Assembly (NCBI GenBank): GCA_009912575.1
Contig: WNDP01000016.1
Location: 1-46,000 of the forward strand
Length of the DNA stretch: 46,000 nt
DNA from: Acinetobacter bereziniae
Lineage (GTDB): Bacteria > Pseudomonadota > Gammaproteobacteria > Pseudomonadales > Moraxellaceae
Direction of reading: 5' to 3'
Below are positions 20,180 through 42,498 of this stretch, one piece after another. The notes beneath the pieces are model-generated. The model saw only the letters and a program-made list of their open reading frames with translations. It was not told where the DNA came from and searched no databases. The position numbers and the translations under genes were made by a program. Numbering within the stretch: position 1 is the stretch's first letter; each line of letters opens with the position of its first letter.

Positions 20180-21211
20180 ATGGCACATCAAATTGAACAA
20201 ATGGCATATGTTGGACAAACGCCTTGGCATGGATTAGGCAACCAACTTACTCATAACCAACCCATAGAGGTTTGGGCTCAACAGGCTGGTATGGATTGGC
20301 GAATTGAATCTTCAAATGTCAGTTATATGGCACAAAATGATCGTGAGCAAAGTATCATTATGCCATTTGAAGAACAACGGGTACTTTATCGTTCAGATAC
20401 CCATGCACCTTTATCTGTGGTCAGTCAACGCTTTCAGGAAGTACAACCTCAAGAGATTCTACATTTCTACAAAGACTTAACAGAACAATCAGGCTTTGAA
20501 CTGGAAACCGCAGGCGTACTCAAAGGTGGTAAGAAATTCTGGGCTTTGGCGAAAACTGGACAAACGACTGCACTCAAAGGCAAAGATGTCAGCAATGGCT
20601 ATATTTTGTTAGCCACAGCTTGTGACGGTACGCTCGCCACCATTGCACAATTTACTTCCATTCGTGTGGTGTGTAATAACACACTTGCGATTGCACTGAA
20701 AGGGCAGGATACAAGTCGAGGTGTGGTGAAAGTACCGCACAGCACCAAGTTTGATGCTGAAAAGGTCAAACAACAATTGGGTATTTCAATCCGTGCATGG
20801 GATGAGCACATGTATGAAATGAAACAGCTCAGTCAACGAAAAGTCACCCAACAAGAAGCCGCAGCCTATTTCGATGCCGTATTTAACAATACGAGCCTAA
20901 GTATTGCTGAACAGGATGAAAGCATCATTCATTTCTATCGCAATGTTGCCAATCAAGCAGAGTCGAATAAAACTGAACCTAACCGAAGAGCAATGTCTAA
21001 GGTCATGACCATGTTTAATGGGCATGGGCGAGGAGCTACACTTTCCTCAGCCAAAGATACGGCTTATGGCTTACTTTGCTCCATCACAGAATTTGCTGAT
21101 CATGAACGTCGTGCAATGAGTCAGGATCATCGGCTCGATTCAGCATGGTTTGGTGCAGGCGCAGGCTTAAAACAACGTAGTTTGGAACAGGCTTTAAGGA
21201 TGATGGCTTAA
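20180..21211 (+). CDS. DUF932 domain protein (phage/plasmid-like)
   Basis: This 343 aa protein has the full DUF932 layout: MAHQIEQMAYVGQTPWHGLG at the start, VLYRSDTHAPLSVVSQRF, then FWALAKTG and RVVCNNTLAIAL, ending with a helical half rich in charged residues (TMFNGHGRGATLSSAKDTAY, then LDSAWFGAG). The family is found in plasmids, phages and integrative elements, usually near recombination genes; its biochemical role is unknown. The start has TAGGAAAA 9 nt upstream. It heads a row with YqaJ and a metal-binding-type protein, all in one direction but each with its own hairpin leader. Confidence 0.85.
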   Translation: MAHQIEQMAYVGQTPWHGLGNQLTHNQPIEVWAQQAGMDWRIESSNVSYMAQNDREQSIIMPFEEQRVLYRSDTHAPLSVVSQRFQEVQPQEILHFYKDLTEQSGFELETAGVLKGGKKFWALAKTGQTTALKGKDVSNGYILLATACDGTLATIAQFTSIRVVCNNTLAIALKGQDTSRGVVKVPHSTKFDAEKVKQQLGISIRAWDEHMYEMKQLSQRKVTQQEAAAYFDAVFNNTSLSIAEQDESIIHFYRNVANQAESNKTEPNRRAMSKVMTMFNGHGRGATLSSAKDTAYGLLCSITEFADHERRAMSQDHRLDSAWFGAGAGLKQRSLEQALRMMA

Positions 21212-21333
21212 ACAACTATTCAATCTATCTGAATAATTAAAGTTTAGTTGAAGATTTACTTTATAATTGCGTAAAAATAGCAGAAACTCAATACTGATTT
21301 ATTCTTAAATCGCCTGTAGTTTCTCTTTTATAG

Positions 21334-21358
21334 CCACATCTTCGGATGTGGTTTTTTT
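21334..21358 (+). terminator. Terminator-like hairpin before the yqaJ-type gene
   Basis: CCACATC (21334-21340), tetraloop TTCG, GATGTGG (21345-21351), then seven T. A very stable intrinsic terminator only 34 nt before the next start, so it either ends the DUF932 transcript or regulates entry into the next gene. It shares the downstream word TTTATGCCCAAA with the leader at 20089-20133. Confidence 0.7.
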
Positions 21359-21392
21359 ATGCCCAAAATTTAACAATAACAGGAATGAAACT

Positions 21393-22454
21393 ATGAATAA
21401 CCACATCAATATCAACCCCCAATCTACTCGACCCATCACATCAACAACTGCTCAAACATTTATTGCCCCAAAACTCTTTAGTGCTAAACGCTTGGTCAAT
21501 ACCAAACAAATGAGCCAAGCGGAGTGGCTAGAAATCCGAAAACAAGGCATTGGCAGTAGTGACTGTGCCGCAGCGTGTGGACTCAATCCCTATATGTCGA
21601 TGCTTGAACTGTGGATGATTAAAACAGGACGTATCCAACAAAACATTGAGGATGAAAGTGAAGGGCATGCACCACTCTATTGGGGTAAACGTTTAGAACC
21701 CTTAGTGGCTGAATACTACAGTCTCCACACCAATTACAAGGTCCGACGAGTCAATGCGGTACTCCAACACCCTGAAGCTGATAAACACTTTATGTTAGCC
21801 AACTTGGATTACTCAGTGGTCGGTGATGCAGATGTACAAATTCTCGAATGTAAAACCGCAGGGGAACATGGTGCCAAGCTTTGGCGAGATGGTGTGCCTT
21901 TATATGTGCTCTGCCAAGTGCAACACCAACTGGCAGTGACAGGCAAAAAAGCAGCACATATCTGTGTACTGATTTGTGGACATGAAACCCGTATTTTTAA
22001 AGTGACCCGTTCAGAATCAGTGATCCAACACATTATCCATGCAGAACGGCACTTCTGGGAATGTGTGGAAAAAGATACCCCACCTGAAGCAGATGCCAGT
22101 GAATCAGCAGCGAAAGCCTTGCAACTACTTTACCCTGAGCATGTGCCATTAAGCACAATTGATCTTGGCGAAGACCCAATTGCCAATCAACAATTTGAAC
22201 AATTGATTCAAGCACGCCATCAAATTGAAAGTGGTCAAGAGACATTTGACCTACTGAAACACCAACTACAAGCCAAGATGCAACAGGCTGAACGAGCCAC
22301 CTTTAAAACAGGCTCGATAACTTGGAAAAAGTCTAAGGATTCAATCGGTTTGGACACTAAGGCATTACTCAAACAGTACCCTGAATACCTCAATCAATTT
22401 CCACAAAGTAAACAAGGTTCTAGGCGCTTCAACATCTACACTCATGCTGACTGA
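21393..22454 (+). CDS. YqaJ-family viral recombinase/exonuclease
   Basis: The start at 21393 (MNNHININPQ) follows AACAGGAATGAAACT; an upstream start at 21348 falls in the leader. The 353 aa protein is a lambda-exonuclease-like nuclease. It has WLEIRKQGIGSSDCAAACGLNPYMSMLELW (the YqaJ signature with R-x-GIGGSD), then YWGKRLEPLVAEYY (Glu), LANLDY (Asp) and VQILECKTAG (Glu-x-Lys), the PD-(D/E)xK active site. Such enzymes resect DNA ends for single-strand annealing recombination in phages and elements. A RecT-like partner would be expected; the next gene is in the position where one often lies. Confidence 0.9.
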   Translation: MNNHININPQSTRPITSTTAQTFIAPKLFSAKRLVNTKQMSQAEWLEIRKQGIGSSDCAAACGLNPYMSMLELWMIKTGRIQQNIEDESEGHAPLYWGKRLEPLVAEYYSLHTNYKVRRVNAVLQHPEADKHFMLANLDYSVVGDADVQILECKTAGEHGAKLWRDGVPLYVLCQVQHQLAVTGKKAAHICVLICGHETRIFKVTRSESVIQHIIHAERHFWECVEKDTPPEADASESAAKALQLLYPEHVPLSTIDLGEDPIANQQFEQLIQARHQIESGQETFDLLKHQLQAKMQQAERATFKTGSITWKKSKDSIGLDTKALLKQYPEYLNQFPQSKQGSRRFNIYTHAD

Positions 22455-22500
22455 AACAAATTTAGCCTAAGTAATTTGAAGTGAAATAAACATTTAAAAG

Positions 22501-22527
22501 TCCCATGCCAGAGCGTATGGGATTTTT
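22501..22527 (+). terminator. Terminator-like hairpin before the metal-binding-type gene
   Basis: TCCCAT (22501-22506) and ATGGGA (22517-22522) with a 10-nt loop (GCCAGAGCGT), then TTTTT. It is 37 nt before the start at 22565 and repeats the arrangement of the two preceding genes. Confidence 0.6.
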
Positions 22528-22564
22528 AAATGTCACATTAATTTATTCAAAAGAGAGAAATACC

Positions 22565-23494
22565 ATGATCAAAGGTTTAGCGATTACACCACCCATACTC
22601 GGTAGAATCAGCATTGGTAAAATTGTTGAAAAGAATGGAAAACGACTCCCTGAAAAGGATGACCAATTTACCATTACCAGCCAAATCCAAGGAAAAGACG
22701 GCTGGATTAAACATCCACTGGATGAACAATTTCGAGCCAAAGCACCCAATCAAAAACTCAGAATAATTCCAGTACGGATGATCTTCAATGATCCTGAACT
22801 CAATCTTAGAGCAGAGTACACCTTATTTGATCGCCAAACTGGACGACCTGTATGTATTGGCAATGGAGAGATTTGTCAAAGACGAACCAACCAAGGTGTA
22901 GAACAACATCAATGTCCTTCCCCAGAGCTATGTCCATTGGCACAGGGAGGGAACTGTAAACCTTTTGGACGCTTGCATGTCAACTTAGACGAATCGGATG
23001 AGTTTGGCAGTTTTGTATTTAGGACCACGGGTTTTAACAGCATTCGTACTTTGGCAGCACGACTTCATTATTACCACGCAGCATCGAATGGCTTGCTGTC
23101 CTGTTTACCACTACAACTGACTCTGAGAGGAAAGTCCACCACACAAAGCTATCGAACACCTGTGTATTACGTGGACTTAACACTCAAAGATGGTGTCAAC
23201 CTACAACAAGCCATTCAAATGGCAAAAGAGATTGATCAACAAAGCAAAGCAACTGGATTTAATCAAAATGCTTTAGATCAGATGGCTCGACAGTGTTTTA
23301 GTAATGCAAGATTTGAGGTGAATTCAGAAGAGGGTTTGGATTTGGTGGAGGAGTTTTATACAGATGAAGTTACTGAGTCTAAACAAACTCAGTCTGAGTC
23401 AAAATCTAAAGTTAAAACTAAGCCCAATCAGGGGGATGGGTTTGTGCAGGATATCCAGCAGGGATTGCAGGGAAGTGTGAGGGCGGTGAATTAA
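22565..23494 (+). CDS. Hydrolase/metal-binding-type protein of the recombination cluster
   Basis: A start at 22565 (MIKGLAITPPILGRISIGKI) with GAGAGAAATACC upstream is preferred; the longer frame from 22505 reads through the hairpin. The protein is about 309 aa. Its middle has a cysteine pattern, GNGEICQRRTN...QCPSPELCPLAQGGNCKPFGRL, that looks like a zinc or Fe-S site. The C-terminus is a charged, repetitive tail (TESKQTQSESKSKVKTK). The family is usually annotated as a metal-binding protein next to DUF932 and YqaJ in Acinetobacter islands. It may be the annealing partner of the exonuclease; this is inference. Its last 165 bases recur in degenerate form about 20 kb downstream. Confidence 0.75.
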   Translation: MIKGLAITPPILGRISIGKIVEKNGKRLPEKDDQFTITSQIQGKDGWIKHPLDEQFRAKAPNQKLRIIPVRMIFNDPELNLRAEYTLFDRQTGRPVCIGNGEICQRRTNQGVEQHQCPSPELCPLAQGGNCKPFGRLHVNLDESDEFGSFVFRTTGFNSIRTLAARLHYYHAASNGLLSCLPLQLTLRGKSTTQSYRTPVYYVDLTLKDGVNLQQAIQMAKEIDQQSKATGFNQNALDQMARQCFSNARFEVNSEEGLDLVEEFYTDEVTESKQTQSESKSKVKTKPNQGDGFVQDIQQGLQGSVRAVN

Positions 23495-23604
23495 AATTGT
23501 TAAATATATTTTAAAAAGCATTAGGTGATGCGGTTGGTAAGATTGCTTCACCTGTTTTAAAGATATTGATTTTATATAGCTAATTTTTAAGAATGAGTTT
23601 GGTG

Positions 23605-24209
23605 TTATTTAGTCTCTGAGTCATTTTGAACAACCCAACTGAGTGTTGTTGCTATAGAGTGATAAATGTTGAATACAAAAGAACTTATTTCACAAAATAA
23701 AAAAGTAGTTCCTGAAATTAAAAAAGTTAAAATTATATAGTTTAAGTATCTATAAATATTACTTAAATTCTCGATGGTTATGTATTTTGTTTCATAACCT
23801 AAATTTAAGTCTTTAAAAAGATATATGATAAATAAAGAAAAACTGAATGCAATAAAATAAATAAAAACTCGAATAAAAGTGAAATGAACTCTTTTAAAAA
23901 AAATAAGTTCAGTTTTTCTATCAGTGTATGCAATCATTTTTTTTGTAAATCTAATGGCGTAATTGTGCAAAAAATAGTGTAACCTGTAACTAAAAATCCT
24001 AATGTGGCAAATATTGCAGAAAACAAAAATGAAACTAGTTCGTTTATTTTAGTGTAACTAGTTTCGATACTTGTATTATTTAGTATAAGAATTACAAAAA
24101 AAATTAAATCAATAGTAATTGGAAAAAATTTATTAAAATTTGACAAAGGTATAACTTGGGATTTTTTATAGATCTCACGAATATTTTTTTCTTCTAAGAG
24201 CCCATTCAT
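23605..24209 (-). CDS. Four-helix membrane protein, broken by a -1 shift at an A8 run
   Basis: Two open frames (23934-24209, 91 aa; 23605-23970, 121 aa) read as one protein if one base is added in the run of eight A at 23937-23944. Then ...GFLVTGYTIFCTITPLDLQKK continues as MIAYTDRKTELIFFKRVHF... The joined product is about 201 aa with four hydrophobic helices (near 28-48, 57-82, 112-132, 152-178). The join falls where many small 4TM effectors have a charged cytoplasmic segment. The first start overlaps the stop of the 334 aa gene (TGATG). The sequence at the shift, C AAA AAA AA, contains a slippery A AAA AAA heptamer in the right frame. Possible pore- or membrane-acting effector; inference. 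Confidence 0.55.
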
Positions 24210-25213
24210 CAGTCAGTCTCAATTTCATGGATAGTCGTAACTTTAGTTGTATCAATAGTATTCAGAATTTTTTGGGTTTCTGTATCTGTTTGTTTGACTT
24301 TTATTTCATTGGAGTGAATAAGTTTTGTGAATGCTGAAAACATATTTAAAACAGTAGCAAAAATATTATTTTGAACGACATCAATAGTTGTTTGAATTTT
24401 CACATCATCATTGTCAATTTTTAATTTTTTTCCAGATGCGTCAGTACCAAGAAGTATAATATTTTGGTTGCCTTGTATCGTTGCTTTATTAGCCTCTTTA
24501 GCAATAACCTTTTGGTTTAAACCTTCGTTATTCGTAATTTCAAATTTCCCTTGTCCTCCAGCTTCATCTGAGGTTTCTTGCATTTGACGGAACATGTCCT
24601 CTCCATCAATTTCAGAGTTGCGATCATTGAGAATAAATGTAACTTTCTTTAACTTATTGAATAAATATATGTTTTCATTTAAAGTTTTTTGATTCGTAAG
24701 TGGAGTCAGCGTCAACTCGACAATTGGGAATTTTTTTAAAAAGGGATTTCTTTCCTCTTTAGGTAAACTATCTTTATAATTAATTTGCTCATTTCTTAAA
24801 AAATATGACAATGTGCTTCTAAAATTTTCAGGAGTTGGAGCATATTTAGTTTCTGCTGCATAAAGTAATCTATGGTTGTTTAAGATTAAAGCAAAAATTG
24901 CCGAAGGTGCTGAATCAAGGTTTTGCTTATCTTTTACTAGTTTCCCACTTGAATCACGATACTGTTCACGTTCAAGTTTAGTCTGTTTTACAAATCGTCC
25001 TACTATAGCTAGAGTATCTTTTTTACCTAGTATATCTTCACCTAGATTAACCAAGGCTACTTCATCAAAATAGAAATTACTTTTGCCTGCTTTTCGGCTT
25101 TTGTTTTTGAAAAACGAAGGTTCAACAACCTCTTTGTATAAGTCCAATAAATTGTGATCCCCAAATTTACATACTAAATTTGCTATTTCTAAGTTTTTTT
25201 CTAAAGTTGCCAT
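24209..25213 (-). CDS. Hypothetical 334 aa protein, candidate sensor of a two-gene defence operon
   Basis: A soluble protein I do not recognise. The N-terminal two thirds look like one alpha/beta domain (FYFDEVALVNLGEDILGKKD, APSAIFALILNNHRLLYAAE, FPIVELTLTPLTNQKT). The C-terminal third has EITNNEGLNQKVIAKEANKA, then DDVKIQTTIDVVQNNIFATV and a Lys/Thr-rich tail. The start at 25213 is the only one fitting. Its stop overlaps the ATG of a four-helix membrane protein. It is divergent from hsdMSR, so it sits inside a defence neighbourhood. A cytoplasmic sensor paired with a membrane effector is a common plan of abortive-infection systems. No active-site motif could be named. Confidence 0.6.
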   Translation of the reverse strand: MATLEKNLEIANLVCKFGDHNLLDLYKEVVEPSFFKNKSRKAGKSNFYFDEVALVNLGEDILGKKDTLAIVGRFVKQTKLEREQYRDSSGKLVKDKQNLDSAPSAIFALILNNHRLLYAAETKYAPTPENFRSTLSYFLRNEQINYKDSLPKEERNPFLKKFPIVELTLTPLTNQKTLNENIYLFNKLKKVTFILNDRNSEIDGEDMFRQMQETSDEAGGQGKFEITNNEGLNQKVIAKEANKATIQGNQNIILLGTDASGKKLKIDNDDVKIQTTIDVVQNNIFATVLNMFSAFTKLIHSNEIKVKQTDTETQKILNTIDTTKVTTIHEIETD

Positions 25214-25410
25214 ATGGTTGTCAGTGTAATTAAAGTTAAATTTATGAAAATATTATATTAAATTTAACAAAATATAAAACACTTTAAAATTATAAATATT
25301 TCTTATTTGAAGGTTCTTATTGAGAACGTTTCCAAAATCAAGGAGAATACTAGCAACATACGCCTTCGCGGTAATAAGAGGCTTTAACTTTTTAGAACTG
25401 TAGACAACCT
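25214..25410. promoter_or_regulatory. Divergent promoter region of the 334 aa operon and hsdM
   Basis: About 200 AT-rich bases between divergent starts. GGTTCTTATTGAGAACGTTT (25311-25330) contains the imperfect palindrome GTTCTTATTGAGAAC, a plausible operator. The hsdM leader after it is GC-richer (ACGCCTTCGCGGTAATAAGAG). Exact promoters are not assigned. Confidence 0.4.
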
Positions 25411-28167
25411 ATGAACAAGCAACAACTCGCATCCAAAATTTGGGACTCAGCAAACAAAATGCGCTCAAAGATTGAGGCAAATGAATATAAAGACTATATC
25501 TTAGGGTTCATGTTCTACAAGTTTTTATCTGACAAAGAACAAGCCTTTTTAGAAGCGAAAGATTTTAGTCAAGCAGATATTGAAGCACTCACTGAAGAAG
25601 ACCCAGAAACGGTTGAATTTATTAAAGATGGTATAGGCTATTTTATTGCTTATGACAATCTGTTTTCGACATGGCTGAAAAAAGGCAATGACTTCAATGT
25701 TGCCAATGTTCGTGATGCATTGTCTGCCTTTTCTCGTTTAATTAGTCCATCACATAAAAAAGTATTCGATGGTATTTTTAAAACACTAGAAACAGGTTTG
25801 AGTAAACTTGGTGACAACTCAAACAGTCAAACCAAAGCTATCAGTGATTTATTGCAATTGATCAAAGTTATTCCGATGAATAACAAGCAAGACTACGATG
25901 TACTTGGTTTTATTTATGAATATTTGATTGGTTCATTTGCTGCTAATGCAGGTAAAAAAGCAGGTGAGTTCTATACTCCACATGAAGTATCTGTGTTGAT
26001 GTCTGAAATCATTGCACATCACTTAAAAGATCAGCAAGAAATCAAAATTTACGATCCAACCAGTGGTTCTGGGTCGCTATTGATAAATATTGGTAGTTCA
26101 GTTGCCAAGCACGTCAACGATGAAAATAAAATCAAATATTACGCACAAGAGTTAAAGGAAAATACCTATAACTTAACCCGTATGAATTTGGTGATGCGTG
26201 GTATTTTGCCTGCGAACATTGTGGCTCGAAATGCCGATACTTTAGAGGATGATTGGCCGTATTTTGAAGACCATGATCCAATCAGTACCTATACACCGTT
26301 GTATGTCGATGCTGTGGTGTCTAATCCGCCTTATTCTCAAGCATGGGATTCAGCGAATAAAGAATCTGATCCGCGTTATGCTCGTTTTGGTTTAGCACCA
26401 AAAACTAAAGCGGACTACGCGTTCCTGTTACATGATCTATATCACTTAAAACCTGATGGCATTATGGCGATTGTTCTACCACACGGCGTATTGTTCCGTG
26501 GTGGTGAAGAAGAACGTATTCGTAAAAACTTGCTTGAAAATAAACATATAGATGCAATCATTGGATTACCTGCCAATATTTTCTTTGGTACAGGTATTCC
26601 AACTGTAATCATAATTTTAAAACAACGTCGCCAAAGTAGTGATGTGCTCATTGTTGATGCATCAAAAGGCTTTATCAAAGTTGGTAAAAATAACCATCTA
26701 CAAGCATCCAACATTAAGAAAATTGTTGATGCTGTTGTAGAGCGTAAAGATATTGAGCAATTTTCTAAATTGGTCAGCTTGGAAGAAATTCGTGAACAAG
26801 GCTATAACTTAAATATTCCTCGTTATGTTGATTCTTCTGCAACAGCGGAAACTTGGGATATTTATGCCACCATGTTTGGCGGTATTCCGAAAAAAGAAAT
26901 TGATGCACATGCTGAGTACTGGAAGGCATTTCCTCAGTTACGCCAAGACTTATTTACTGATAGCAATACGCCTTATGTCGATTTAGCCACGTCAGAAATC
27001 AGTAATGCTATTTATCAGCATGCCAATGTTCAAACATTTAAATCGCAATTTAATACGGCTTTTGCCAATTTCCATGATTATTTAAAAGCTGAACTCATTG
27101 GCAAGATGCAGTCTTTGCATATTGCGCAGCAGGAAAATGTTTTAAGTCAGGATATTTTCAAGCGTTTGGAAAATATTGCTTTAGTTGACAAATATCAAGC
27201 CTATCAAGCCTTGGATGATCAATGGCAAAGCATTGCAGGGGACTTGGAGATTATTCAATCTGAGGGCTTAAATGCGACCAAGATTGTGAATCCGAATATC
27301 GTCATTAAAAAGAAAGATGGTAAAGAGCAGGAAGTTCAAGACGGTTGGGTGGGTTATGTGTTGCCATTTGATTTGGTACAACAACATTTACTTATTGATG
27401 AACTCACTGCGTTGCAAAATAAAGAACGTGCTTTAACTGAAGCCAGTGCTGAAATTGAAGCGATTATGGATTCGTTGTCTGAAGAAGACAAAGACACCTT
27501 ATTGAACGATGCCAATGATGCCTTTGTAACAGCAGAAATTACCAAAGCATTGAAGCAGGCATTTGAAGAGATAGAAACGCCTGAAATCCGTGTGATCAAT
27601 CAATTGTTAGAATTGCTTGCAAATAAAGCGAAAAAGCCTGAGCAGGAACAGTTTGTACAGTCACATCCTGAAGTACAGTGGGCGAACATTGAAGCCAATA
27701 AAAATGGTACTTATGCAATAGGTAAGGTCAAAGCCTATTTAAAAACGTTACAGGCGAATTTTACTTTTGCTGAAGACTCTTTGGAAGCGAAGTTGTTCCA
27801 AGTAGAAGATTTGCTTGCACAGGAGAAAGAGCTGAAAGCTGAGATTAAAGCTGATGCCAATGCTTTGTATTTGTTGACTAAAACCACGATTGAAGCACTA
27901 GAAGATTCACAGGTTTTAGAGCTGTTGGAAGCGAAGTGGGTGCAACCGATTGTGTCTGCAATTTTGGCGTTGCCGAATGAAGTAATTGAGCATTTGACTG
28001 ATGTGGTACAGGCTTTGGCAGATAAGTATGCAGTGACCTATACCGAAACCACGCAAAAGCTGACTGAAGCAGAAAATAGTCTTGCGAGCCTGATTGATGA
28101 TTTAACAGGTGATGATTTTGACATGCAAGGTTTGGCACAGTTTCAAGCATTGTTAAAAGGGGCATAA
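25411..28167 (+). CDS. hsdM: Type I restriction-modification methyltransferase subunit
   Basis: A 918 aa N6-adenine methyltransferase. An N-terminal HsdM bundle (NKQQLASKIWDSANKMRSKI) precedes GEFYTPHEVSVLMSEII, motif I DPTSGSGSLL (residues 215-223) for AdoMet binding, and motif IV NPPYSQAW (305-308) for catalysis. Most HsdM proteins end near 500-550 aa. This one has a long extra C-terminal half (about 540-918) rich in Glu, Ala and Leu, likely coiled-coil, which may replace or assist subunit contacts. hsdS begins one base after its stop. With HsdS it methylates a bipartite site that cannot be predicted here. Confidence 0.93.
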   Translation: MNKQQLASKIWDSANKMRSKIEANEYKDYILGFMFYKFLSDKEQAFLEAKDFSQADIEALTEEDPETVEFIKDGIGYFIAYDNLFSTWLKKGNDFNVANVRDALSAFSRLISPSHKKVFDGIFKTLETGLSKLGDNSNSQTKAISDLLQLIKVIPMNNKQDYDVLGFIYEYLIGSFAANAGKKAGEFYTPHEVSVLMSEIIAHHLKDQQEIKIYDPTSGSGSLLINIGSSVAKHVNDENKIKYYAQELKENTYNLTRMNLVMRGILPANIVARNADTLEDDWPYFEDHDPISTYTPLYVDAVVSNPPYSQAWDSANKESDPRYARFGLAPKTKADYAFLLHDLYHLKPDGIMAIVLPHGVLFRGGEEERIRKNLLENKHIDAIIGLPANIFFGTGIPTVIIILKQRRQSSDVLIVDASKGFIKVGKNNHLQASNIKKIVDAVVERKDIEQFSKLVSLEEIREQGYNLNIPRYVDSSATAETWDIYATMFGGIPKKEIDAHAEYWKAFPQLRQDLFTDSNTPYVDLATSEISNAIYQHANVQTFKSQFNTAFANFHDYLKAELIGKMQSLHIAQQENVLSQDIFKRLENIALVDKYQAYQALDDQWQSIAGDLEIIQSEGLNATKIVNPNIVIKKKDGKEQEVQDGWVGYVLPFDLVQQHLLIDELTALQNKERALTEASAEIEAIMDSLSEEDKDTLLNDANDAFVTAEITKALKQAFEEIETPEIRVINQLLELLANKAKKPEQEQFVQSHPEVQWANIEANKNGTYAIGKVKAYLKTLQANFTFAEDSLEAKLFQVEDLLAQEKELKAEIKADANALYLLTKTTIEALEDSQVLELLEAKWVQPIVSAILALPNEVIEHLTDVVQALADKYAVTYTETTQKLTEAENSLASLIDDLTGDDFDMQGLAQFQALLKGA

Positions 28168-28168
28168 T

Positions 28169-29413
28169 GTGGAAAATCAAAAATGCCCTGAGATTAGGTT
28201 TAAAGGATTTAATCAGACTTGGATTGAGAAAAAATTAAAAAGTGTTTCTTTTAAAGTTATTGAAAAAAATCTCAATAGTTTATACACAGAAACTTTCACC
28301 AATTCTGCGCAATTTGGAGTGGTTTCTCAACGAGATTTTTTTGATAAAGATATTTCTAATTCTAGTAGCATTAAAGGCTATTATGTAGTTAAAGAAAATG
28401 ATTTTATTTATAATCCGCGGATATCAAATTTTGCCCCTGTAGGTCCAATTAAAAGAAATAAGTTAGGACGTATAGGGGTCGTTTCTCCACTTTATTTTGT
28501 TTTTAGGGTGCATGGTCTTGATTATCAGTTTTTAGAAACCTATTTTGAATCATCTAAATGGCATCATTTTATGTTTTTGAACGGGGACACTGGTGCTAGA
28601 TCTGATCGACTCGCAATAAAAAATTCAATATTAATTGAAATGCCTATTTATTGCCCTGATGAGAAAACTCAAAAGGATATCGGTAAGTTTTTCCAGCACC
28701 TTGATCAATCTATTGCTTTGCATGAAAAGAAATTGAATCAAACGCAAAACCTTAAAAAAGCCATGCTGGAAAAAATGTTTCCAACAGCAGAAAGTAATAA
28801 GCAGCCTGAGATTCGTTTAAAAGGTTTTAGTGGAGAGTGGGAGGAATTTCAATTAGAAAATTTAGGTGAATTTAAAAATGGCATGAATATGGATAAGGAC
28901 TCTATGGGTTTTGGAAATCCTTTTGTAAATATTCAACATATTTTTGAATCTACTGAAGTTACTAAGCACAATTTAGAGCTCGTCAATGCTACTAATAAGC
29001 AAAAAAAAGACTACAACTTATTGAAAGGTGATGTTTTATTTGTAAGGTCTTCTGTTAAGTTGGAAGGTGTTGGAGATACGGCTGTACTGGTGGATGATAT
29101 TGAGGGAGCGACTTATTCTGGTTTTCTTATTAGATTTAGATCGAATATTAATCTTAGTTTAGATTATAAAAAAGTAATGTTCTCTATTCCATTAGTAAGA
29201 AAGCAAATATTGGCTAATGCTACCACAAGCGCTAATACAAACATTAATCAGGAGAGCTTGAAGAAGATTTTGATTTTGCTTCCGAAATACGAGGAACAGA
29301 CTCAAATAGGTCTATTTTTCAAACAACTTGACGAAACCCTTGTATTACAACAGCAACATCTTCAAACCCTAAAAAATCTAAAACAGGCATTTTTAGAAAA
29401 AATGTTTGTTTGA
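28169..29413 (+). CDS. hsdS: Type I restriction-modification specificity subunit
   Basis: A 414 aa HsdS with two target-recognition halves, each ending in a conserved helix. Repeat one starts PEIRFKGFNQTW and ends LHEKKLNQTQNLKKAMLEKMF. Repeat two starts PEIRLKGFSGEW and ends LQQQHLQTLKNLKQAFLEKMF. The paired PEIRxKGF...NLKxAxLEKMF units are the usual internal symmetry and likely points of domain swapping. The start is GTG at 28169; the ATG just upstream is out of frame. It fixes the DNA sequence recognised by both the methylase and the nuclease complex. Confidence 0.93.
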   Translation: MENQKCPEIRFKGFNQTWIEKKLKSVSFKVIEKNLNSLYTETFTNSAQFGVVSQRDFFDKDISNSSSIKGYYVVKENDFIYNPRISNFAPVGPIKRNKLGRIGVVSPLYFVFRVHGLDYQFLETYFESSKWHHFMFLNGDTGARSDRLAIKNSILIEMPIYCPDEKTQKDIGKFFQHLDQSIALHEKKLNQTQNLKKAMLEKMFPTAESNKQPEIRLKGFSGEWEEFQLENLGEFKNGMNMDKDSMGFGNPFVNIQHIFESTEVTKHNLELVNATNKQKKDYNLLKGDVLFVRSSVKLEGVGDTAVLVDDIEGATYSGFLIRFRSNINLSLDYKKVMFSIPLVRKQILANATTSANTNINQESLKKILILLPKYEEQTQIGLFFKQLDETLVLQQQHLQTLKNLKQAFLEKMFV

Positions 29414-29470
29414 ATCCCTCCCTTGCGCCGCTTTAATCGCGGCTCATCCTTTCAAAGGGAGACTTTTTAT
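29414..29470 (+). repeat. Nested hairpin between hsdS and hsdR
   Basis: GCCGC-TTTAATC-GCGGC lies inside a longer stem CTCCCTT/AAGGGAG, followed by ACTTTTTAT. The U-rich end makes it terminator-like, so hsdR may be expressed at a lower level than hsdM and hsdS. It also looks like a mobile intergenic palindrome, being far more GC-rich than its surroundings. Confidence 0.5.
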
Positions 29471-29498
29471 AAATTGACTTGATAAAAGCAAATAGACC

Positions 29499-32400
29499 AT
29501 GACATTTAAAAGCGAAAAAGAATTTGAACAGGCATTTATCGACATCCTTTTAAAAAAAGGGTGGAAAGGTGTAATTAAAAATCCTACGGAACAGGATTTA
29601 ATCAACAACTGGGCAAATATTCTTTTTGAAAATAATAGCGGTATAGATCGGCTGAATAGTCAGCCACTTACTGACTCCGAAATGGCGCAAATACTCGAAC
29701 AAATTAAAACTTTGCGTACACCGTTGGCACTCAATGGCTTTATTAATGGCAAAACTGTTTCTATCAAACGAGACAACCCAAATGATCCAGCACACTTAGG
29801 TAAAGAAATAAGCCTTAGTATTTATGACCGCCAGCAAATCGCAGCTGGGGAAAGCCGTTACCAAATCGTACAACAACCCAAATTCCCAACGTCTTCAACG
29901 ATTTTAAATGATCGACAAGGCGACATTATGTTGCTGATCAATGGTATGCCATTGTTTCATATTGAATTGAAACGCTCAGGCGTCCCTGTCAGTCAGGCAG
30001 CACATCAAATCGAAAACTATGCCCGTTCAGGTATTTTTTCAGGGCTATTTTCATTGGTACAAATCTTTGTAGCGATGAATCCAGAAGAAACTAAATACTT
30101 TGCCAATCCCGGTCCAGATGGATCATTTAACTCAGATTACTATTTTAACTGGGCAGATTTTAACAACGAACCAATCAATTATTGGAAATACATTGCTGCG
30201 CATTTGCTGTCTATTCCGATGGCACATCAGCTCATTGGATTTTACACCGTAGCAGATAAAACCGATGGCGTTTTAAAGGTCATGCGCAGTTACCAGTATT
30301 TTGCAGTTCGTGCTATTTCTGACCGTGTAGCGCGTATCGAGTGGGACGGGCGAGATCGTTTAGGTGGTTATATTTGGCATACCACTGGTTCAGGTAAAAC
30401 CATGACCAGCTTTAAATCGGCTTATCTGATTGCAACCTCTAAAGATGCTGATAAAGTGATTTTCTTGATGGATCGTATTGAACTCGGCACGCAGTCATTA
30501 GAGCAATACAATAACTTTGCAGACACGGACGACTTTGTACAATCTACTGAAAATACTTATGCGTTGATTAGCAAACTCAAAAGTACCAATCCGAACGAAG
30601 TCCTGATTGTTAGCTCAATTCAAAAAATGAGTAATATCAAGCAAGAAGAGGGTGGTCTCAAAGCCCATGATATTGAGCAGATGCAGAAAAAGCGCATCGT
30701 CATTATTGTAGATGAAGCACACCGTTCAACCTTTGGCGATATGCTCATTACCATTAAAGAAACCTTTCCTCAGGCAGTCTTCTTTGGTTTTACAGGGACG
30801 CCGATTCAAGACGAAAATGAAAAGAATTTGAATACCACCGCAACAGTATTCGGTCATGAGTTGCACCGTTACAGTATTGCAGATGGTATTCGAGATAAAA
30901 ACGTACTCGGTTTTGATCCTTACCTGATTTCAACTTATAAAGATTCAAAATTACGAGAAGCTGTGGCTTTGGATGAAGCAAAAGCCAATACTGTTCGAGA
31001 GGCTATGGCTGATCCTAAAAAGAAAGAAATTTATTTACGCTTTATGGATAAAAGTCAGGTTGCTATGGCAGGTCATTGGGATAAAGCCAACAACTATACC
31101 AGAGGAATTGAAGATTACTTGCCAACAGAGCAGTATCGTCGTCCTGAGCATCAAAATAAAGTGGTTGAAGATATTTTAGAGAACTGGATTCAATATAGCC
31201 AAAATAATAAATTTCATGGCATGTTTGCCACCAGTAGTATTGCCGAAGCAATTGAATATTATCGTTTATTTAAAAAATTAAAACCTGAGCTAAAAATTAC
31301 GGCATTGTTTGATCCAAATATTGATAATAATGAAAATGCTAAATTCAAAGAAGATGGCTTGGTTGAGATCATAAGCGACTATAATAATCGTTATGGCATG
31401 GAGTTTAGTTTAGCCACCCACGCCAAAATGAAGCGTGATATTGCTGACCGTTTAGCCCATAAAGAATTATATAAGCGTGTAGAACATACCCCTGAAAAAC
31501 AGCTTGAGCTATTGATTGTTGTTGATCAAATGCTGACAGGTTTTGACTCTAAATGGGTCAATACTTTGTATTTGGATAAGATGCTTGAGTATGCAAACTT
31601 GATTCAAGCATTCTCACGTACCAACCGCTTATTTGGTAAAGATAAACCATTCGGTATCATTCGATATTACCGACGTCCGCATACGATGAAACGTAATATT
31701 GATGCAGCAGTTAAGTTGTATTCAGGCGATAAGCCTTTGGCTTTATTTGTAGATAAACTGCAAGATAACCTAAATAAATTAAACGCGATTTTTACTGATA
31801 TAGAACAACTGTTTAAAAGTGCGGGTATCGAAAACTTTGAAAAGTTACCTGAAGACAAAGATGATTGTGGTCAGTTTGCAAAACTATTTAAGCAGTTCAA
31901 TGAGCATCTTGAGGCTGCAAAAATTCAAGGTTTTAATTGGAAGCAACTTACCTATTGCTTTGATGATAAACAATCAAATGAGCCACCATTTGAGGTTAGT
32001 ATAGACCAACAGACTTATTTAATTTTAGCTTTACGATACAAAGAGTTATTTTCTGAAGTTGGAAGCGGTGGTGGTGGCGGTAGTGTTCCATTTGAAGTTG
32101 AGGGATATTTAACTGAAATTGATACTGATAAGATTGATTCAGATTACATGAACAGTCGATTTACCAAATATTTGAAAGCATTGTATGATGGTGAAAAAGC
32201 TATATCACTTGAAGTCGCATTAAATGAGTTACATAAGAGTTTTGCGGCTTTGACGCATAATGAACAAAGAATTGCCAATATCTTTTTGCATGACTTACAA
32301 CGTGGTGATGTGAAATTACAAGAAGATAAATCGTTTAGAGATTATATTACGGAGTATCAATTTAAAGCCAAAGAGGATGAAATACATGCTATTGCGACTT

Positions 32401-32630
32401 CTTTTGGTTTAGACGAGTCAAAACTAAGACAGTTGATCAGCGCGCATGTCAATGAAAATAATATAAATGAATTTGCACGTTTTGATACATTATTGAATAC
32501 TGTGGACAAGACAAAGGCAAAGCAACATTTTGAGCAGGAAGAAGGAAAGGCGATACCACCTTTCAAAGTCAATGTGAAAGTTGCAGCCTTTTTAAAAGAG
32601 TTTGTTTTGAAAAATTCAAATGTCGACTAG
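29499..32630 (+). CDS. hsdR: Type I restriction endonuclease subunit
   Basis: A 1043 aa HsdR. The N-terminal nuclease domain has Asp142 (DRQGDIMLLING) and HIELKRSG (Glu156-x-Lys158), the PD-(D/E)xK core. The motor follows, with Walker A HTTGSGKT (295-300), DEAH box (404-407) and GFTGTPI (motif III), then the second RecA domain with MLTGFDSKWVNTLYLDK and QAFSRTNRL. A glycine-rich linker (GSGGGGGS) separates a C-terminal helical region that contacts the methylase. Everything needed for translocation and cleavage is present, so the system appears complete. Confidence 0.95.
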   Translation: MTFKSEKEFEQAFIDILLKKGWKGVIKNPTEQDLINNWANILFENNSGIDRLNSQPLTDSEMAQILEQIKTLRTPLALNGFINGKTVSIKRDNPNDPAHLGKEISLSIYDRQQIAAGESRYQIVQQPKFPTSSTILNDRQGDIMLLINGMPLFHIELKRSGVPVSQAAHQIENYARSGIFSGLFSLVQIFVAMNPEETKYFANPGPDGSFNSDYYFNWADFNNEPINYWKYIAAHLLSIPMAHQLIGFYTVADKTDGVLKVMRSYQYFAVRAISDRVARIEWDGRDRLGGYIWHTTGSGKTMTSFKSAYLIATSKDADKVIFLMDRIELGTQSLEQYNNFADTDDFVQSTENTYALISKLKSTNPNEVLIVSSIQKMSNIKQEEGGLKAHDIEQMQKKRIVIIVDEAHRSTFGDMLITIKETFPQAVFFGFTGTPIQDENEKNLNTTATVFGHELHRYSIADGIRDKNVLGFDPYLISTYKDSKLREAVALDEAKANTVREAMADPKKKEIYLRFMDKSQVAMAGHWDKANNYTRGIEDYLPTEQYRRPEHQNKVVEDILENWIQYSQNNKFHGMFATSSIAEAIEYYRLFKKLKPELKITALFDPNIDNNENAKFKEDGLVEIISDYNNRYGMEFSLATHAKMKRDIADRLAHKELYKRVEHTPEKQLELLIVVDQMLTGFDSKWVNTLYLDKMLEYANLIQAFSRTNRLFGKDKPFGIIRYYRRPHTMKRNIDAAVKLYSGDKPLALFVDKLQDNLNKLNAIFTDIEQLFKSAGIENFEKLPEDKDDCGQFAKLFKQFNEHLEAAKIQGFNWKQLTYCFDDKQSNEPPFEVSIDQQTYLILALRYKELFSEVGSGGGGGSVPFEVEGYLTEIDTDKIDSDYMNSRFTKYLKALYDGEKAISLEVALNELHKSFAALTHNEQRIANIFLHDLQRGDVKLQEDKSFRDYITEYQFKAKEDEIHAIATSFGLDESKLRQLISAHVNENNINEFARFDTLLNTVDKTKAKQHFEQEEGKAIPPFKVNVKVAAFLKEFVLKNSNVD

Positions 32631-32816
32631 GATGGATGGTCATTAATATGAAATACCAACTACCTTATACCATCACATACAAAAATATTCATTTGATTAC
32701 ATAGATCCGTGAAAATATAGGACGTTTGACTGTTTTGAAGTTAATTTATATTATATTTAATATTGTAGTGCGATAAGATTTTGAAAATTAATGGAATAAT
32801 TTGAATTTTAGTTAAG

Positions 32817-33691
32817 CTACTTAACCACATTTGAATTAATTAATGTGTCGAAGCCAGATAAAATATCTGGCTGATATTTTACTAAATGATTTTTAATATT
32901 TTCATTGGATACGATTTTGTTAATATAGCCAATAGCAATAACAAGGTTAAGCGTATCTTGCGCGTAGCTTTGTTCGATTGCTTTATATTGTAAGTGTAAA
33001 CTAGAGATGTCATTTTCAATTTTTTTGATGGCATCAACTGAAGGGCTATTTTTTTTATTTTTGGAGGCGAAACTAACATATTGATATCAGTTGCTGCAAG
33101 TAATGCCTTTGCATATGTCATCGTTATGTTATTCACAGATAACATAAGTTCTGTACATTCAATTTGTCTTAATGGCTTCATTTTTCTTAAAAAAGGAAAA
33201 ACCTGATGTGAAATTTCTCTGTTTTTTAATAGCTCAACAACTTCTGGACAAATGCCATTGAGTAAGTTCATTTTTGATTTAATATATTTGATATCCATAT
33301 GGAGAGCTTTTGCTAGCCGCTCTTCACTTACACCTCGTTCAATAGCTCGTTGAATCATAAAATGTTCTTGAATTGTTGCAAGGCGATTAATTTGCTTATT
33401 GTGCGTATAATTTTCATCGTCTGTTGAAAGTAAACATGGAATTTCGGCATGGTCTAATTCTTTTAAAATTTCAAGCCGCAGATGTCCATCAAGTAGCGAA
33501 AATAAATTTTTATCACCTTTTATTTCTGAAATAGATAATGGTTCAATAACTCCTATCTCAAGAATGGACGCTTTGATTTGCTTGTATTTTCTGGTATATG
33601 GAATATGTGGTCCTAATTTTCTAGTGACTAATATTTGTTCTGGGCGGAGATATAAAGGCTGAAAATAGAATGATATTTTGGTTTGTTTCAT
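32817..33691 (-). CDS. ParB/RepB-like protein, broken by a -1 shift at an A8 run
   Basis: The start at 33691 (MKQTKISFYFQPLYL) follows AGGGTGGTGA; an upstream GTG at 33703 is less likely. The N-terminal ParB/Srx-type domain has FSLLDGHLRLEILKEL, followed by the helical RepB core (AIERGVSEERLAKALHMDIK). In the given frame the protein derails after PPKIKK into a Lys/Leu tail ending at 32882. One extra A in the run at 33049-33056 restores NSPSVDAIKKIENDISSLHL, AIEQSYAQDTLNLVIAIGYI and DILSGFDTLIN, the expected RepB C-terminal domain. The site ATA AAA AAA contains the slippery A AAA AAA in the right frame. It is the last gene of the recombinase trio. Confidence 0.65.
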
Positions 33692-33704
33692 TTTTATCAC
33701 CACC

Positions 33705-34595
33705 CTAGTTTATTTGTTCATCTAAGTATTTTGGCATAGTATCTAAATTCTCTGCTCTTAATAGTGTACTGAATAGTTCATCAGCTTTTAGATGGGTTAG
33801 AGCACCTATAATAAAACTTAGCTTTTGTTTAGTTTGTTCAGCTTTTTTCACAGCAATTTGTTGTCGCTCAACTTCTTTTTGATAAGTCTTAACAATGTCA
33901 TTTGCCGTAATTTTATTGTTGATTTGATATTGACCATACCCCAGACTTTTTCCTGAAAATTGTCGACGTTCAATTATTCTCTTTGCTTGTAAAAGTTGAT
34001 TTCCTTTTAAATTTCCCATCTCATAAGCCTCTTGTAAAACCAGTTGCATTTCAGGATTATTATTTGCTGTTTTTGCAATAGTCAAAGCAATACTCAATGG
34101 GATACGTTTTTGTTCAACAGCATACAATAAACGCTCTTCCCCATTTTTTAACAAGGTAAGAATTCCTTGGATATATTCAGGGACAAGCCCCGTTTTTTGG
34201 GCTATCGTAAATTTGTCATAGCCTAAATCAGATAGCCTTTCAATACTACTGAGTAGATCTAAAGCCCTATGTTGCTTTCTTGCAATATTTTCAACCAAGC
34301 TCATAATCAGAGCATCTTCTTGATCAACATCAATAATTCTAGCGGGAATTTCAATTTCTCCTAAAGTTTTGAAAGCTTGTATCCTTCCTTCGCCACAAAT
34401 AAGTTGATATTGAAAGGTACTATTTATACGCTGAGTTACTGTAATGGGTTTTTTTAAGCCCACTTTACGAATACTTTCAATAATTTCTGCAAAGATTTTT
34501 GGATTTCGATCCCTCGGATTTAGAATTTCAATTTGCTCTATTTTAATAAGTTGAATCGAGGTTTCTCTTAACTGTGTTAACTCGCGCTTTTCCAT
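33705..34595 (-). CDS. ParB/RepB-family DNA-binding protein
   Basis: This 296 aa protein has a ParB N-terminal fold (QIEILNPRDRNPKIFAEIIE, YQLICGEGRIQAFKTLGEIE with the family's G-x-x-R motif), then ENIARKQHRALDLLSSIERL and a helix-turn-helix (IAQKTGLVPEYIQGILTLLK). A coiled-coil C-terminal half includes QKEVERQQIAVKKAEQTKQK. The start lies inside the 3' end of the recombinase gene (19-base overlap), so the two are co-translated. In an element without a ParA it is more likely to guide or regulate the recombinase than to segregate DNA; that is inference. Confidence 0.8.
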   Translation of the reverse strand: MEKRELTQLRETSIQLIKIEQIEILNPRDRNPKIFAEIIESIRKVGLKKPITVTQRINSTFQYQLICGEGRIQAFKTLGEIEIPARIIDVDQEDALIMSLVENIARKQHRALDLLSSIERLSDLGYDKFTIAQKTGLVPEYIQGILTLLKNGEERLLYAVEQKRIPLSIALTIAKTANNNPEMQLVLQEAYEMGNLKGNQLLQAKRIIERRQFSGKSLGYGQYQINNKITANDIVKTYQKEVERQQIAVKKAEQTKQKLSFIIGALTHLKADELFSTLLRAENLDTMPKYLDEQIN

Positions 34596-36148
34596 TTGAC
34601 ACGCTCCGCCATTCCAATTAAATAGTTTAAATTATCGAATCTAAAACTTTCTAACTCCACTGAATTGAACTCCCCAATGTTAATTTTGTCACACATAAAA
34701 TCTAGTCTAGGTAAAAGGTAATAATCTTTAATCGCTGTATTTGTTGAATCTAAGCGTACAACAACAGATATATCAGGATTCAGGATTGTATCGAAACGAA
34801 CTTTCCAGCGATAATTTCCACTACCGAGTTGGTGGCAACGAGTAAGAACGAGTGAAATACTGACCTCTTCATTGATGAAAATGAGATCGTTAAATGGATC
34901 TTTTTGAATGTTCGCTCCATTTAACTTAGCCATTTCACTGATAACATGTTGTGTAATTTCAGGGTGCAATTTCCTTAAAAATTTATTGATTTCAATATAA
35001 CGATAGTCTCGTTCAGGTTGAAACCCGATTAACTCATAAGCTCGAAGCAGGCTTCCAAAACGGTTGGAATAAACGCCTGTCTTAGGAGTACTTTCAGATT
35101 CATTGATGATTATGCCAGATAAAAAACCATGTTTTTGATATAAGCTTTTTAATAAATCGAGTAATTCTTCATCTGTGTATTTGCGTGACCTTTCTCGAAT
35201 GATACCTTGTGCCGTATAAAACATTTCTAAAGGGACAATTGCTTCAAATGCTTGATCTTTTCTAATCCATTGTTCTTCAGGATTAGATATATGAACCCTT
35301 TTGAGTTTGAATGATTTTCTATTGAAAACGTTGTTACCTATATATTTTTCGTTGGTAAGCACTTCATGTACTGTATTTCGAGTCCATGCACGGTCAAAGT
35401 CAGTTTTTATATTATCTGAATTCAATTTTTCTGCGATTTGAGATTCAGTCAGATTATGCTGGATAAACCATTCATAAATTTTATGGATAATTTCTATTTC
35501 TTCTTTTGGTCCTGCTACAAGTATGACTCGATCCATTTGAAAGCTTTTGTGTTCTCCCATTCTGAGTAATGTCTTTAAATTACCATGTTGATCAATCAAA
35601 GCTCGTCTTAAGCCATAGCCAGCAGTTCCGCCTTGCCTAAAACCCATTTCAATTAAACGGCATTGGCCAATAAAAACTTTGTTTGATAATTCACGGCTAT
35701 ATTCTCCCGCCATTGTTCGTTTAAAGCTTTTCATGACATTGGAAAAGTTTGTTCCATCATTGGCAAATTGTTCAGCGCAATAAATGATATTAATGCCTGC
35801 ACGCTTACAAATGTATTCGTAGTAGGCACTTTCGTCAGCATCTTGAAAACGACCCCAACGACTTATGTCATAAACCAAGATAATTTTAAAATCAACTTTT
35901 TGTGATTCAACATCTAGTATTAATTGTTGGAGTCCAGAACGTCCATTTAGACTTAGTCCACTTTTTCCATCATCAGAATAAGTTTTGATGATTTTTATAT
36001 TGTGAGCGGTTGCATATTCTTGAATCTTATCGGATTGGTTTAACGTTGAGTATTGTTGGTGATCTGTAGACATGCGGACATAACATGCCGCTAATATAGG
36101 CTTGTCTAGTTCAGTAGTTTGTTGTGGTTCAGCGGTGTTTGAATCCAT
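34577..36148 (-). CDS. Large serine recombinase
   Basis: A 523 aa site-specific recombinase. The resolvase domain covers residues 18-170, with the nucleophile Ser27 in CYVRMSTDHQ and conserved arginines in VYDISRWGRFQD and FKRTMAGEYSREL. The recombinase domain (about 190-300) includes GFRQGGTAGYGLRRAL and WTRNTVHEVLTNEKYIGNNV. A C-terminal region of more than 200 residues lacks the usual Cys4 zinc ribbon and is unlike phiC31-type integrases. It heads a three-gene leftward operon with two ParB/RepB-like proteins, suggesting a dedicated integration or mobilisation module carrying the neighbouring defence genes. Attachment sites were not located. Confidence 0.88.
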   Translation of the reverse strand: MDSNTAEPQQTTELDKPILAACYVRMSTDHQQYSTLNQSDKIQEYATAHNIKIIKTYSDDGKSGLSLNGRSGLQQLILDVESQKVDFKIILVYDISRWGRFQDADESAYYEYICKRAGINIIYCAEQFANDGTNFSNVMKSFKRTMAGEYSRELSNKVFIGQCRLIEMGFRQGGTAGYGLRRALIDQHGNLKTLLRMGEHKSFQMDRVILVAGPKEEIEIIHKIYEWFIQHNLTESQIAEKLNSDNIKTDFDRAWTRNTVHEVLTNEKYIGNNVFNRKSFKLKRVHISNPEEQWIRKDQAFEAIVPLEMFYTAQGIIRERSRKYTDEELLDLLKSLYQKHGFLSGIIINESESTPKTGVYSNRFGSLLRAYELIGFQPERDYRYIEINKFLRKLHPEITQHVISEMAKLNGANIQKDPFNDLIFINEEVSISLVLTRCHQLGSGNYRWKVRFDTILNPDISVVVRLDSTNTAIKDYYLLPRLDFMCDKINIGEFNSVELESFRFDNLNYLIGMAERVKWKSAS

Positions 36149-40800: not shown

Positions 40801-40892
40801 CTGAAACTAAATCTTACACAGAAACTCATTCCCAAGAATTAACAGATGATGAGGATGAAACAGAGCGTAATTTTCAAGAAGATGATATTTAA
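37818..40892 (+). CDS. vgrG: Type VI secretion spike protein VgrG (TssI)
   Basis: A 1024 aa VgrG that trimerises to form the puncturing tip of the type VI secretion system and carries the effector encoded next. Phage gp27-like region about 20-420 (HLQLICLSTNAQLPLKTFIG), gp5 OB-fold at about 440-545 (RARVVGLSGEEIHVDEWGRI, KVRFLF, DSAWVDVLTPWAGEGYGARF, LPRVGEVVVIDFFDG, DRPFVVGRIHE), and a DUF2345-type needle region after 700 (IGLASNEDVHLSADGQINHS). The C-terminus adds a transthyretin-like beta domain (about 860-930) and a very acidic tail, likely the cargo adaptor. The effector's ATG overlaps its stop (TAATG). No PAAR gene or structural T6SS gene is here, so this is an orphan vgrG-effector cassette. 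Confidence 0.93.
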   Translation: MSNNIYAALEQLGLTAKQRAIHLKFSNDMLNDHVSLQRIDGTHALNDGIHLQLICLSTNAQLPLKTFIGSQVAIDIVNDQSELNRISGIVTKADVGASDGSLTIYRLTVEDPTALWKYRRNSRVFMAKSVVDIVQCIFSEWQQRSSLFATSLTLDKSGLTKDYDVRPFIMQNNELDAEFIQRLLSEEGITTLIDEAQLKVSSSSEQIQPQKLRLVDSNDQYQALDRRNIRFHRSSAVEASDSIINITGQRTLQPTAVHIQRWQADALETEEGAGSVQSKHQHSENYDNASLGLEQAWHFSPAWIQDLNGEDGVTKSGNSQIEKFNENLSNYYDSQAKQFTATSTIRDANVGYFFELDEHPTISQLESQNKQFLIIAKRFYNQNNLPKDLAHQVETLLKQSDWQTTNIITNNSEERQANELVLQRRNIKIVPEYNPLTQRPTAHPMRARVVGLSGEEIHVDEWGRIKVRFLFTRNEDHNHDGGAGSNDNDTDSAWVDVLTPWAGEGYGARFLPRVGEVVVIDFFDGNLDRPFVVGRIHEGHRHPTKFDDKGKLPETKKLSGIKSKEYQGSGYNQLRFDDTTNQISSQLHSSHGVSQLNLGNLSHPKETETSEGRGEGFELRTDQWGAVRAKKGLLLSTFSQDSASGNHLDAAETKSQLESSLNSSKALSEVAKNQQTDPLEMLDGLKQFIEQIEQESETKAKAFKQALMILTSPNSIGLASNEDVHLSADGQINHSAGNSINFSTQKNLITHAQNKISLFAAQEGARLFAGKGKLEIQAQGDGADLIARKGVQIISTEDSIYITSPKEIRLIADTSEVKINGSGVFATTGGLFEVKSGQQKFTGGASVSAELPYLPVIGENTGFIELNYVYEDLSPVKQATYELLFEDGTSKKGQLDENGYAKIENIELGKKAKILYGEDIRTKPEHFIELLENPILNQKVRSESEVSTVRASFADSYQSFLTDNFFDDEIEEMQNGGDITHDHYDDYILENEFNPETKSYTETHSQELTDDEDETERNFQEDDI

Positions 40893-42493: not shown

Positions 42494-42498
42494 TTCTA

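Follow-up and report, generated by a model that had tools for sequence, protein, structure and literature searches.

What is the two-gene unit that stands back to back with a type I restriction-modification (R-M) system in Acinetobacter bereziniae, and is it a defence system of a new kind? The unit, here called genes A and B, lies in a 46,000-nucleotide stretch (the window; contig WNDP01000016.1, positions 1 to 46,000, assembly GCA_009912575.1), where the initial annotation had proposed a new defence system that couples a protein of unrecognised family to a four-helix membrane protein. Our analysis makes it very probable that A and B form a RexAB-type phage-exclusion pair, distantly related to RexA/RexB of phage lambda. 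The claim of a new system is not supported, since A shares its fold with lambda RexA and the two genes together follow the RexAB plan.

Structure comparison of the predicted fold of A revealed the two-domain fold of lambda RexA. Scans of window A and the B pieces against Pfam, PADLOC, PHROGs and NCBIfam gave weak rows only (the best had E 0.0019 and 16.8 bits, where the cut-off is 362), and the description of A as a protein of no recognised family thus stood for sequence libraries and fell at the level of fold. No substantial match in Pfam, NCBIfam or PHROGs tied A or B to a metabolic family, which the initial annotation had named as a finding that would speak against its proposal. A sequence search of PDB returned unrelated enzymes (best E 0.072), which we read as chance. 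The AlphaFold2 (AF2) prediction made for one B was a helical bundle, and hydropathy profiles of its relatives mostly contained four hydrophobic stretches (range 3 to 5). In BFVD, the first row for A (E 9.1e-12) and the second row for B (E 0.87) both came from Siphoviridae sp. ctylc9.

The pairing of A with B is strict. Among viral contigs, B lay directly downstream in all 21 contigs matched with A, and A lay directly upstream in 31 of the 32 matched with B; the sole B-like gene found without A upstream was a weak one (L096:3818-4504). The genome collection contributed 11 loci, ten with both genes and one (L065) cut by the contig end. With loci retrieved twice counted once, and L065 and L096 excluded, the two genes stood together at 49 places (31 viral contigs, 10 collection loci, 4 whole-genome loci, 3 phage or plasmid loci and the window), ranging over Gammaproteobacteria, a Rhodocyclales metagenome-assembled genome, and phage or viral contigs. 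This count leaves out 12 of the 13 phage records matching A (one of them a second record of phage 4LV2017), and many of the places are near-identical; a redundancy filter that also dropped split or short copies retained 35 A sequences. The proposal that the soluble and the membrane protein form one unit was supported. Gene A is rare. Genomes that carry it numbered 4 of 176 for the genus Acinetobacter, 5 of 299 for the family and 1 of 369 for the class, each count taking in the genome of the window; among Pseudomonas genomes it was found in 2 of 348 (including the genome at the search centre). In Salinivibrio, B is followed by a further 231-amino-acid (aa) open reading frame (ORF; L006:11697-12392) with hydrophobic stretches seen by eye.

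A ties to RexA by fold, and B ties to RexA-like systems through the DUF4747 branch. According to the available excerpts of the literature, HHpred finds weak matches to DUF4747 in lambda RexA and in the RexA-like proteins encoded by phages CarolAnn, Sbash and Butters. When B was compared by hhalign with two membrane proteins that partner DUF4747 proteins in Acinetobacter, it reached probabilities of 83.5 and 87.9 and scores of 43.3 and 46.5, while the reversed control scored 13.6 (against 46.5) and shuffles at most 18.6; an hmmsearch of a small database with the B profile also found both partners (3.9e-5 and 1.4e-4). B therefore shares a partner family with DUF4747 proteins, as judged on the two partners compared. 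For A itself, hhalign with 35 A sequences against RexA scored 26.9, compared with 20.8 for the reversed control and with none of 40 shuffles reaching it. Five DUF4747 proteins gave no signal with A: the scores were reached by 18 of 60 and 1 of 40 shuffles, and the reversed control was equal. As a yardstick, DUF4747 and RexA, which published work links, had an hhalign probability of only 0.9 (0 of 60 shuffles; the profiles are shallow), indicating that an hhalign miss for A says little. A DUF4747-type gene (L031:1328-2227, E 4.8e-30) is present on another contig of the genome that holds the window, with no four-helix partner directly downstream as judged by eye; a search of the viral contigs with its protein gave no match.

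Several results weigh against the assignment of A and B to the RexAB type. The PADLOC RexA and RexB models (PDLC02339, PDLC02340) matched none of the seven sequences scanned (A and the two B pieces from the window, the A proteins of L005 and L014, and the B proteins of L005 and L002), and a DUF4747 (PF15931) row appeared for 1 of 21 A proteins, at 21.9 bits against a cut-off of 27 (E 1.3e-4). The hhalign comparison of A with seven RexA sequences was marginal and confined to the second half (probability 4, score 26.6, reached by 2 of 60 column shuffles), and that of B with RexB gave no signal. TM-scores of A to RexA were low (0.27-0.34, with root-mean-square deviations above 14), which we tentatively read as a differing angle between the two domains. 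Comparison of the B fold with PDB and with the viral collection BFVD yielded no row that we trusted; and B is split in this strain. Lambda RexA and RexB matched their own PADLOC models at 9e-110 and 8.6e-61, indicating that the models exist but miss the A-B family. By sequence, A-B appears as a family outside that of lambda RexA/RexB (PADLOC test) and outside DUF4747 (Pfam cut-off), and it is one without a name in the libraries searched.

The genomic settings of the relatives include phages and defence-type neighbourhoods. Klebsiella phage 4LV2017, which is P2-like, carries the gene order cI, A, B, integrase. Among the 31 viral contigs, cI overlapped A or lay at most 11 bases upstream of it in 12, and in 18 an integrase gene stood no more than 150 bases away, to one side or the other; a cI neighbour was also found at L005, L007 and L064. 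These counts are minimum values (three repressor and six integrase queries), several of the contigs are near-identical, and the contigs come from a search of a viral collection, which biases the sample towards phages. A CI-like repressor neighbour is thus present in relatives and not in the window. The 18 places from outside the viral collection comprised five with phage signatures (L005, L007, L061, L064, L100), seven with defence-type neighbours of the R-M, methylase/HerA, Septu-like, FRG or toxin-antitoxin-like kinds (the window, L056, L058, L062, L063, L098, L099) and six with neither recognised in the regions examined (L006, L055, L057, L059, L060, L104; few queries were used for L059), some neighbour gene names having been assigned by eye. 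The defence setting described for the pair was supported. The initial annotation had held that homologues lying mostly outside defence neighbourhoods would refute its proposal; the places examined leaned the other way.

The window and A. chengduensis (L063) share one arrangement and are not independent cases. In Alteromonas sp. MMG017, hsdR, hsdM and hsdS are followed after 79 bases by A-B on the same strand; the C-terminal family of HsdR is EcoEI there and EcoR124 in the window, so that the R-M association of the Alteromonas pair looks independent of that in the window. In Acinetobacter G062, the pair is preceded by genes for a D12 methylase, then a HerA-like helicase, then a protein of 449 aa, and is followed by an Mrr_N/HNH gene. 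The 449 aa protein of this upstream region (L098:9138-13302) has no Pfam or PADLOC match, and the three upstream genes are a candidate defence module. B is followed by a Septu-like pair in Pseudomonas sp. IPO3778 (best PADLOC rows PDC-M62A/B) and by an FRG gene in Thalassotalea, and BrnT/BrnA-like genes, named by eye, adjoin A-B on an 11.8 kb contig of G140.

Which described system comes closest? According to the available parts of its report (PMC12894663), RexABpp of Pseudomonas putida prophage P1 (PP_5643-5644) consists of a RexA-like DNA-binding protein and a four-helix membrane protein encoded after a CI-like repressor, that is, the same two-gene composition as A-B. The tagged RexApp is given there as 37.5 kDa; six A relatives (L062 from Pseudomonas and five viral contigs) have masses of 36.9-37.6 kDa untagged and 37.7-38.4 kDa with six His, all above the 31.3 kDa of lambda RexA. 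Size and plan suggest that RexABpp (PP_5643/PP_5644) may belong to the A-B family. It differs from the window pair, which lies beside a type I R-M system with no recognised prophage genes adjoining. With lambda RexA/RexB the pair shares the RexA fold of A, the adjacent membrane partner and, in P2-like phages, the order cI-A-B, equivalent to cI-rexA-rexB; however, RexA is shorter than A by 55 aa and RexB shorter than the intact B of L002 (205 aa) by 61 aa, hhalign detected no clear sequence similarity, and the PADLOC models failed to match. CarolAnn gp44-gp43 and Sbash gp30-gp31 are described, in the excerpts available, as a RexA-like cytosolic protein with a four-helix membrane partner. The B profile links the pair to the partners of two Acinetobacter DUF4747 proteins; A stays below the DUF4747 cut-off. 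Escherichia coli RdgC also counts among the closest known systems; it is a recombination-associated protein and is not known to have a membrane partner. A 3.3 kb E. coli plasmid (L050:101-1382) carries a RexA relative that shares 26.8% identity with lambda RexA in tblastn and, after it, a gene resembling RexB (27%); several other small plasmids likewise match. Among the matches listed in literature searches on RexAB, RexA-like proteins, DUF4747 and Kiwa, no paper dealt with the A-B family, RexABpp being a possible exception.

The state of B bears directly on what the pair does in this strain. The initial annotation had inferred a single B gene split at an A8 run, and the first and second pieces indeed matched residues 2-92 (86% identity) and 86-201 (62%) of the intact 205 aa protein of A. 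chengduensis (L002), each piece matching its own part of one protein, which argues that B is one gene, split in this assembly. The split is real in this assembly, whether as a true lesion or as a sequencing or assembly error. A programmed frameshift was set aside, the B of relatives occupying a single frame. The pair is probably non-functional in this strain, barring an assembly error at the split. The chances are about even that the pair is at present a decaying remnant, carried along with the R-M island and doing nothing, which is compatible with its membership of a RexAB-type family. The two frames of B at the A8 run favour this, as do three of the 48 other places, which have a broken A or B. 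The ratios of nonsynonymous to synonymous substitution rates (dN/dS) against A. chengduensis were low, at 0.07 for A and 0.05 and 0.11 for the first and second B pieces (0.06 for hsdM; the values for the B pieces and hsdM are rough, with dS of 1.5-2.0), so that purifying selection apparently acts on A and on each of the B pieces; any decay would then be recent, or the split an assembly error. Five intact B pairs lack the difference in conservation seen between the two pieces. Relaxed constraint once B had split might account for it, although the less conserved second piece has a dN/dS of just 0.11. A broken gene was found at 4 of the 49 places, as judged on stop-to-stop frames with broken genes left unmended. 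The broken gene is B at three of them, namely the window, L007 (a Klebsiella plasmid prophage) and L104 (the Pseudomonas-genus genome G769), and A at one, L061 (P. mandelii). The loss of B with retention of A fits B as the costly part, although four cases are few. The same cases bear on a reversal of roles, as in mycobacteriophage Butters, where B would hold A at the membrane and freed A would be the toxic or antiviral agent. The two-part plan would be the same, and the accessible portions of the Butters paper and of the RexABpp discussion (PMC12894663) present the roles of gp30/gp31 as reversed. A free toxic A would nonetheless select against loss of B, yet three of the four broken places, the window among them, keep an unbroken A with a broken B, and the membrane protein is described as the effector in lambda, CarolAnn, Sbash and RexABpp, as far as the available text of PMC12894663 states. 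We consider this reversal improbable.

The prophage settings raise another possibility, namely that the pair serves the prophage, with A tuning the lysogeny switch as proposed for lambda RexA and exclusion being secondary. The cI-A-B order in P2-like phages is what this would predict, and lambda RexA is reported, in the excerpt available, to bias the bistable switch. However, A-B copies without a recognised prophage adjoin R-M, methylase/HerA, Septu-like and FRG genes, and the P. putida repressor promoter was unaffected by rexABpp in the experiments given in the accessible part of PMC12894663, making this explanation very unlikely. Least likely by our estimate, and exceedingly so, is a membrane-effector defence of another type, such as a Pycsar-like or Kiwa-like one. 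One intact B had a weak PycTM match (E 5.5e-4), and Kiwa couples a four-helix membrane protein to a cytosolic protein of similar size. No cyclase was present among the window neighbours scanned (other loci were not searched for one), and A has the RexA fold. Kiwa had been our first guess from the plan; the KwaB domain of Kiwa is DUF4868, and Kiwa was dropped because Pfam rows with E of 1 or less for 21 A proteins and 16 B proteins did not include DUF4868, and because of the fold of A.

For A and B as a RexAB-type pair, we infer a mechanism and an immune role by analogy with lambda RexAB, CarolAnn and RexABpp. A would be a cytoplasmic RexA-fold protein that probably dimerises and binds DNA; dimerisation and DNA binding without sequence preference are reported, in the excerpts available, for RexA, Sbash gp30, CarolAnn gp44 and Toast gp42, and DNA binding for RexApp (PMC12894663, available part). 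Its trigger might be an intermediate of phage replication or recombination, or else a DNA-bound phage protein; once engaged, A would switch on B. Triggered B, a predicted four-helix inner-membrane protein, would make the membrane leaky, so that growth stops and infection is aborted. More speculatively, and with a fairly low probability in our estimate, RexAB-type pairs may repeatedly have left prophages to become a second line behind restriction, in which A would sense DNA ends or repair intermediates that arise as R-M or another nuclease encounters a phage it fails to stop, and would fire B. According to the available part of a 2026 paper, R-M genes adjoin DUF4747/CarolAnn systems, with a DNA-damage-responsive regulator between.

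Table 1. Positions of the A-B pair and of the adjoining type I R-M genes in the window.
Feature	Positions	Strand	Description	Basis
Gene A	24209..25213	−	334 aa, ATG start; RexA-fold soluble protein, presumed DNA-binding sensor	
TGATG	24207..24211	−	one base common to the A stop and the B start	sequence
Gene B, first piece	23934..24209	−	91 aa; holds helices 1 and 2 of the four in this membrane protein	
Gene B, second piece	23605..23970	−	121 aa; helices 3 and 4	
A8 run	23937..23944	−	meeting point of the two B frames; T8 on the + strand	
Divergent intergenic region	25214..25410		197 bases, between A and hsdM	
hsdM	25411..28167	+	type I methyltransferase; 85% identical, same position in A. chengduensis	
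hsdS	28169..29413	+	type I specificity subunit; Pfam/PADLOC match	
hsdR	29499..32630	+	type I restriction subunit; Pfam/PADLOC match	

The length of A and its one-base overlap with B, as first described, were confirmed by the sequence (Table 1). The divergent orientation of the pair relative to a type I system also held, as HsdM, HsdS and HsdR (25411-32630) across the intergenic gap each matched their own Pfam and PADLOC families. A promoter scan of this gap on the A strand found no promoter-like site, the region scanned giving fewer sites than shuffles. The pair apparently sits in a mobile island (window 20180-36148) that contains DUF932, YqaJ exonuclease and Gp3-like genes on one side and, on the other, the R-M genes, two ParB/RepB-like genes and a large serine recombinase weakly similar to SCCmec Ccr. 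The DUF932-YqaJ-Gp3-pair-hsdMS portion is common to A. chengduensis L063. A tRNA search of the window found none, and no prophage genes were recognised beside its A-B copy. A. chengduensis L063 has an HNH endonuclease gene (131 aa, L063:11664-12059) between B and the Gp3-like gene, unlike the window, where no HNH ORF is listed in the corresponding gap. Adjoining the island, window 37818-43506 is apparently an effector-immunity cargo: a VgrG gene of type VI secretion, after which come a gene of 533 aa that Pfam does not match and an immunity gene of the PoNi type.

RexAB is described as the first abortive-infection system tied to phage defence, and described RexAB-like systems number just five in the available text of the 2026 report (PMC12894663). 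A-B adds a further family of the RexAB plan, whose scanned members the PADLOC models missed, and its intact pairs allow the question of what RexA-like proteins sense to be asked. With type I R-M systems beside it in two genera, the family lends itself to tests of a layered response: if A-B does act as a fail-safe behind restriction, a single family would combine prophage exclusion in P2-like phages with an R-M-coupled fail-safe in Acinetobacter and Alteromonas islands.
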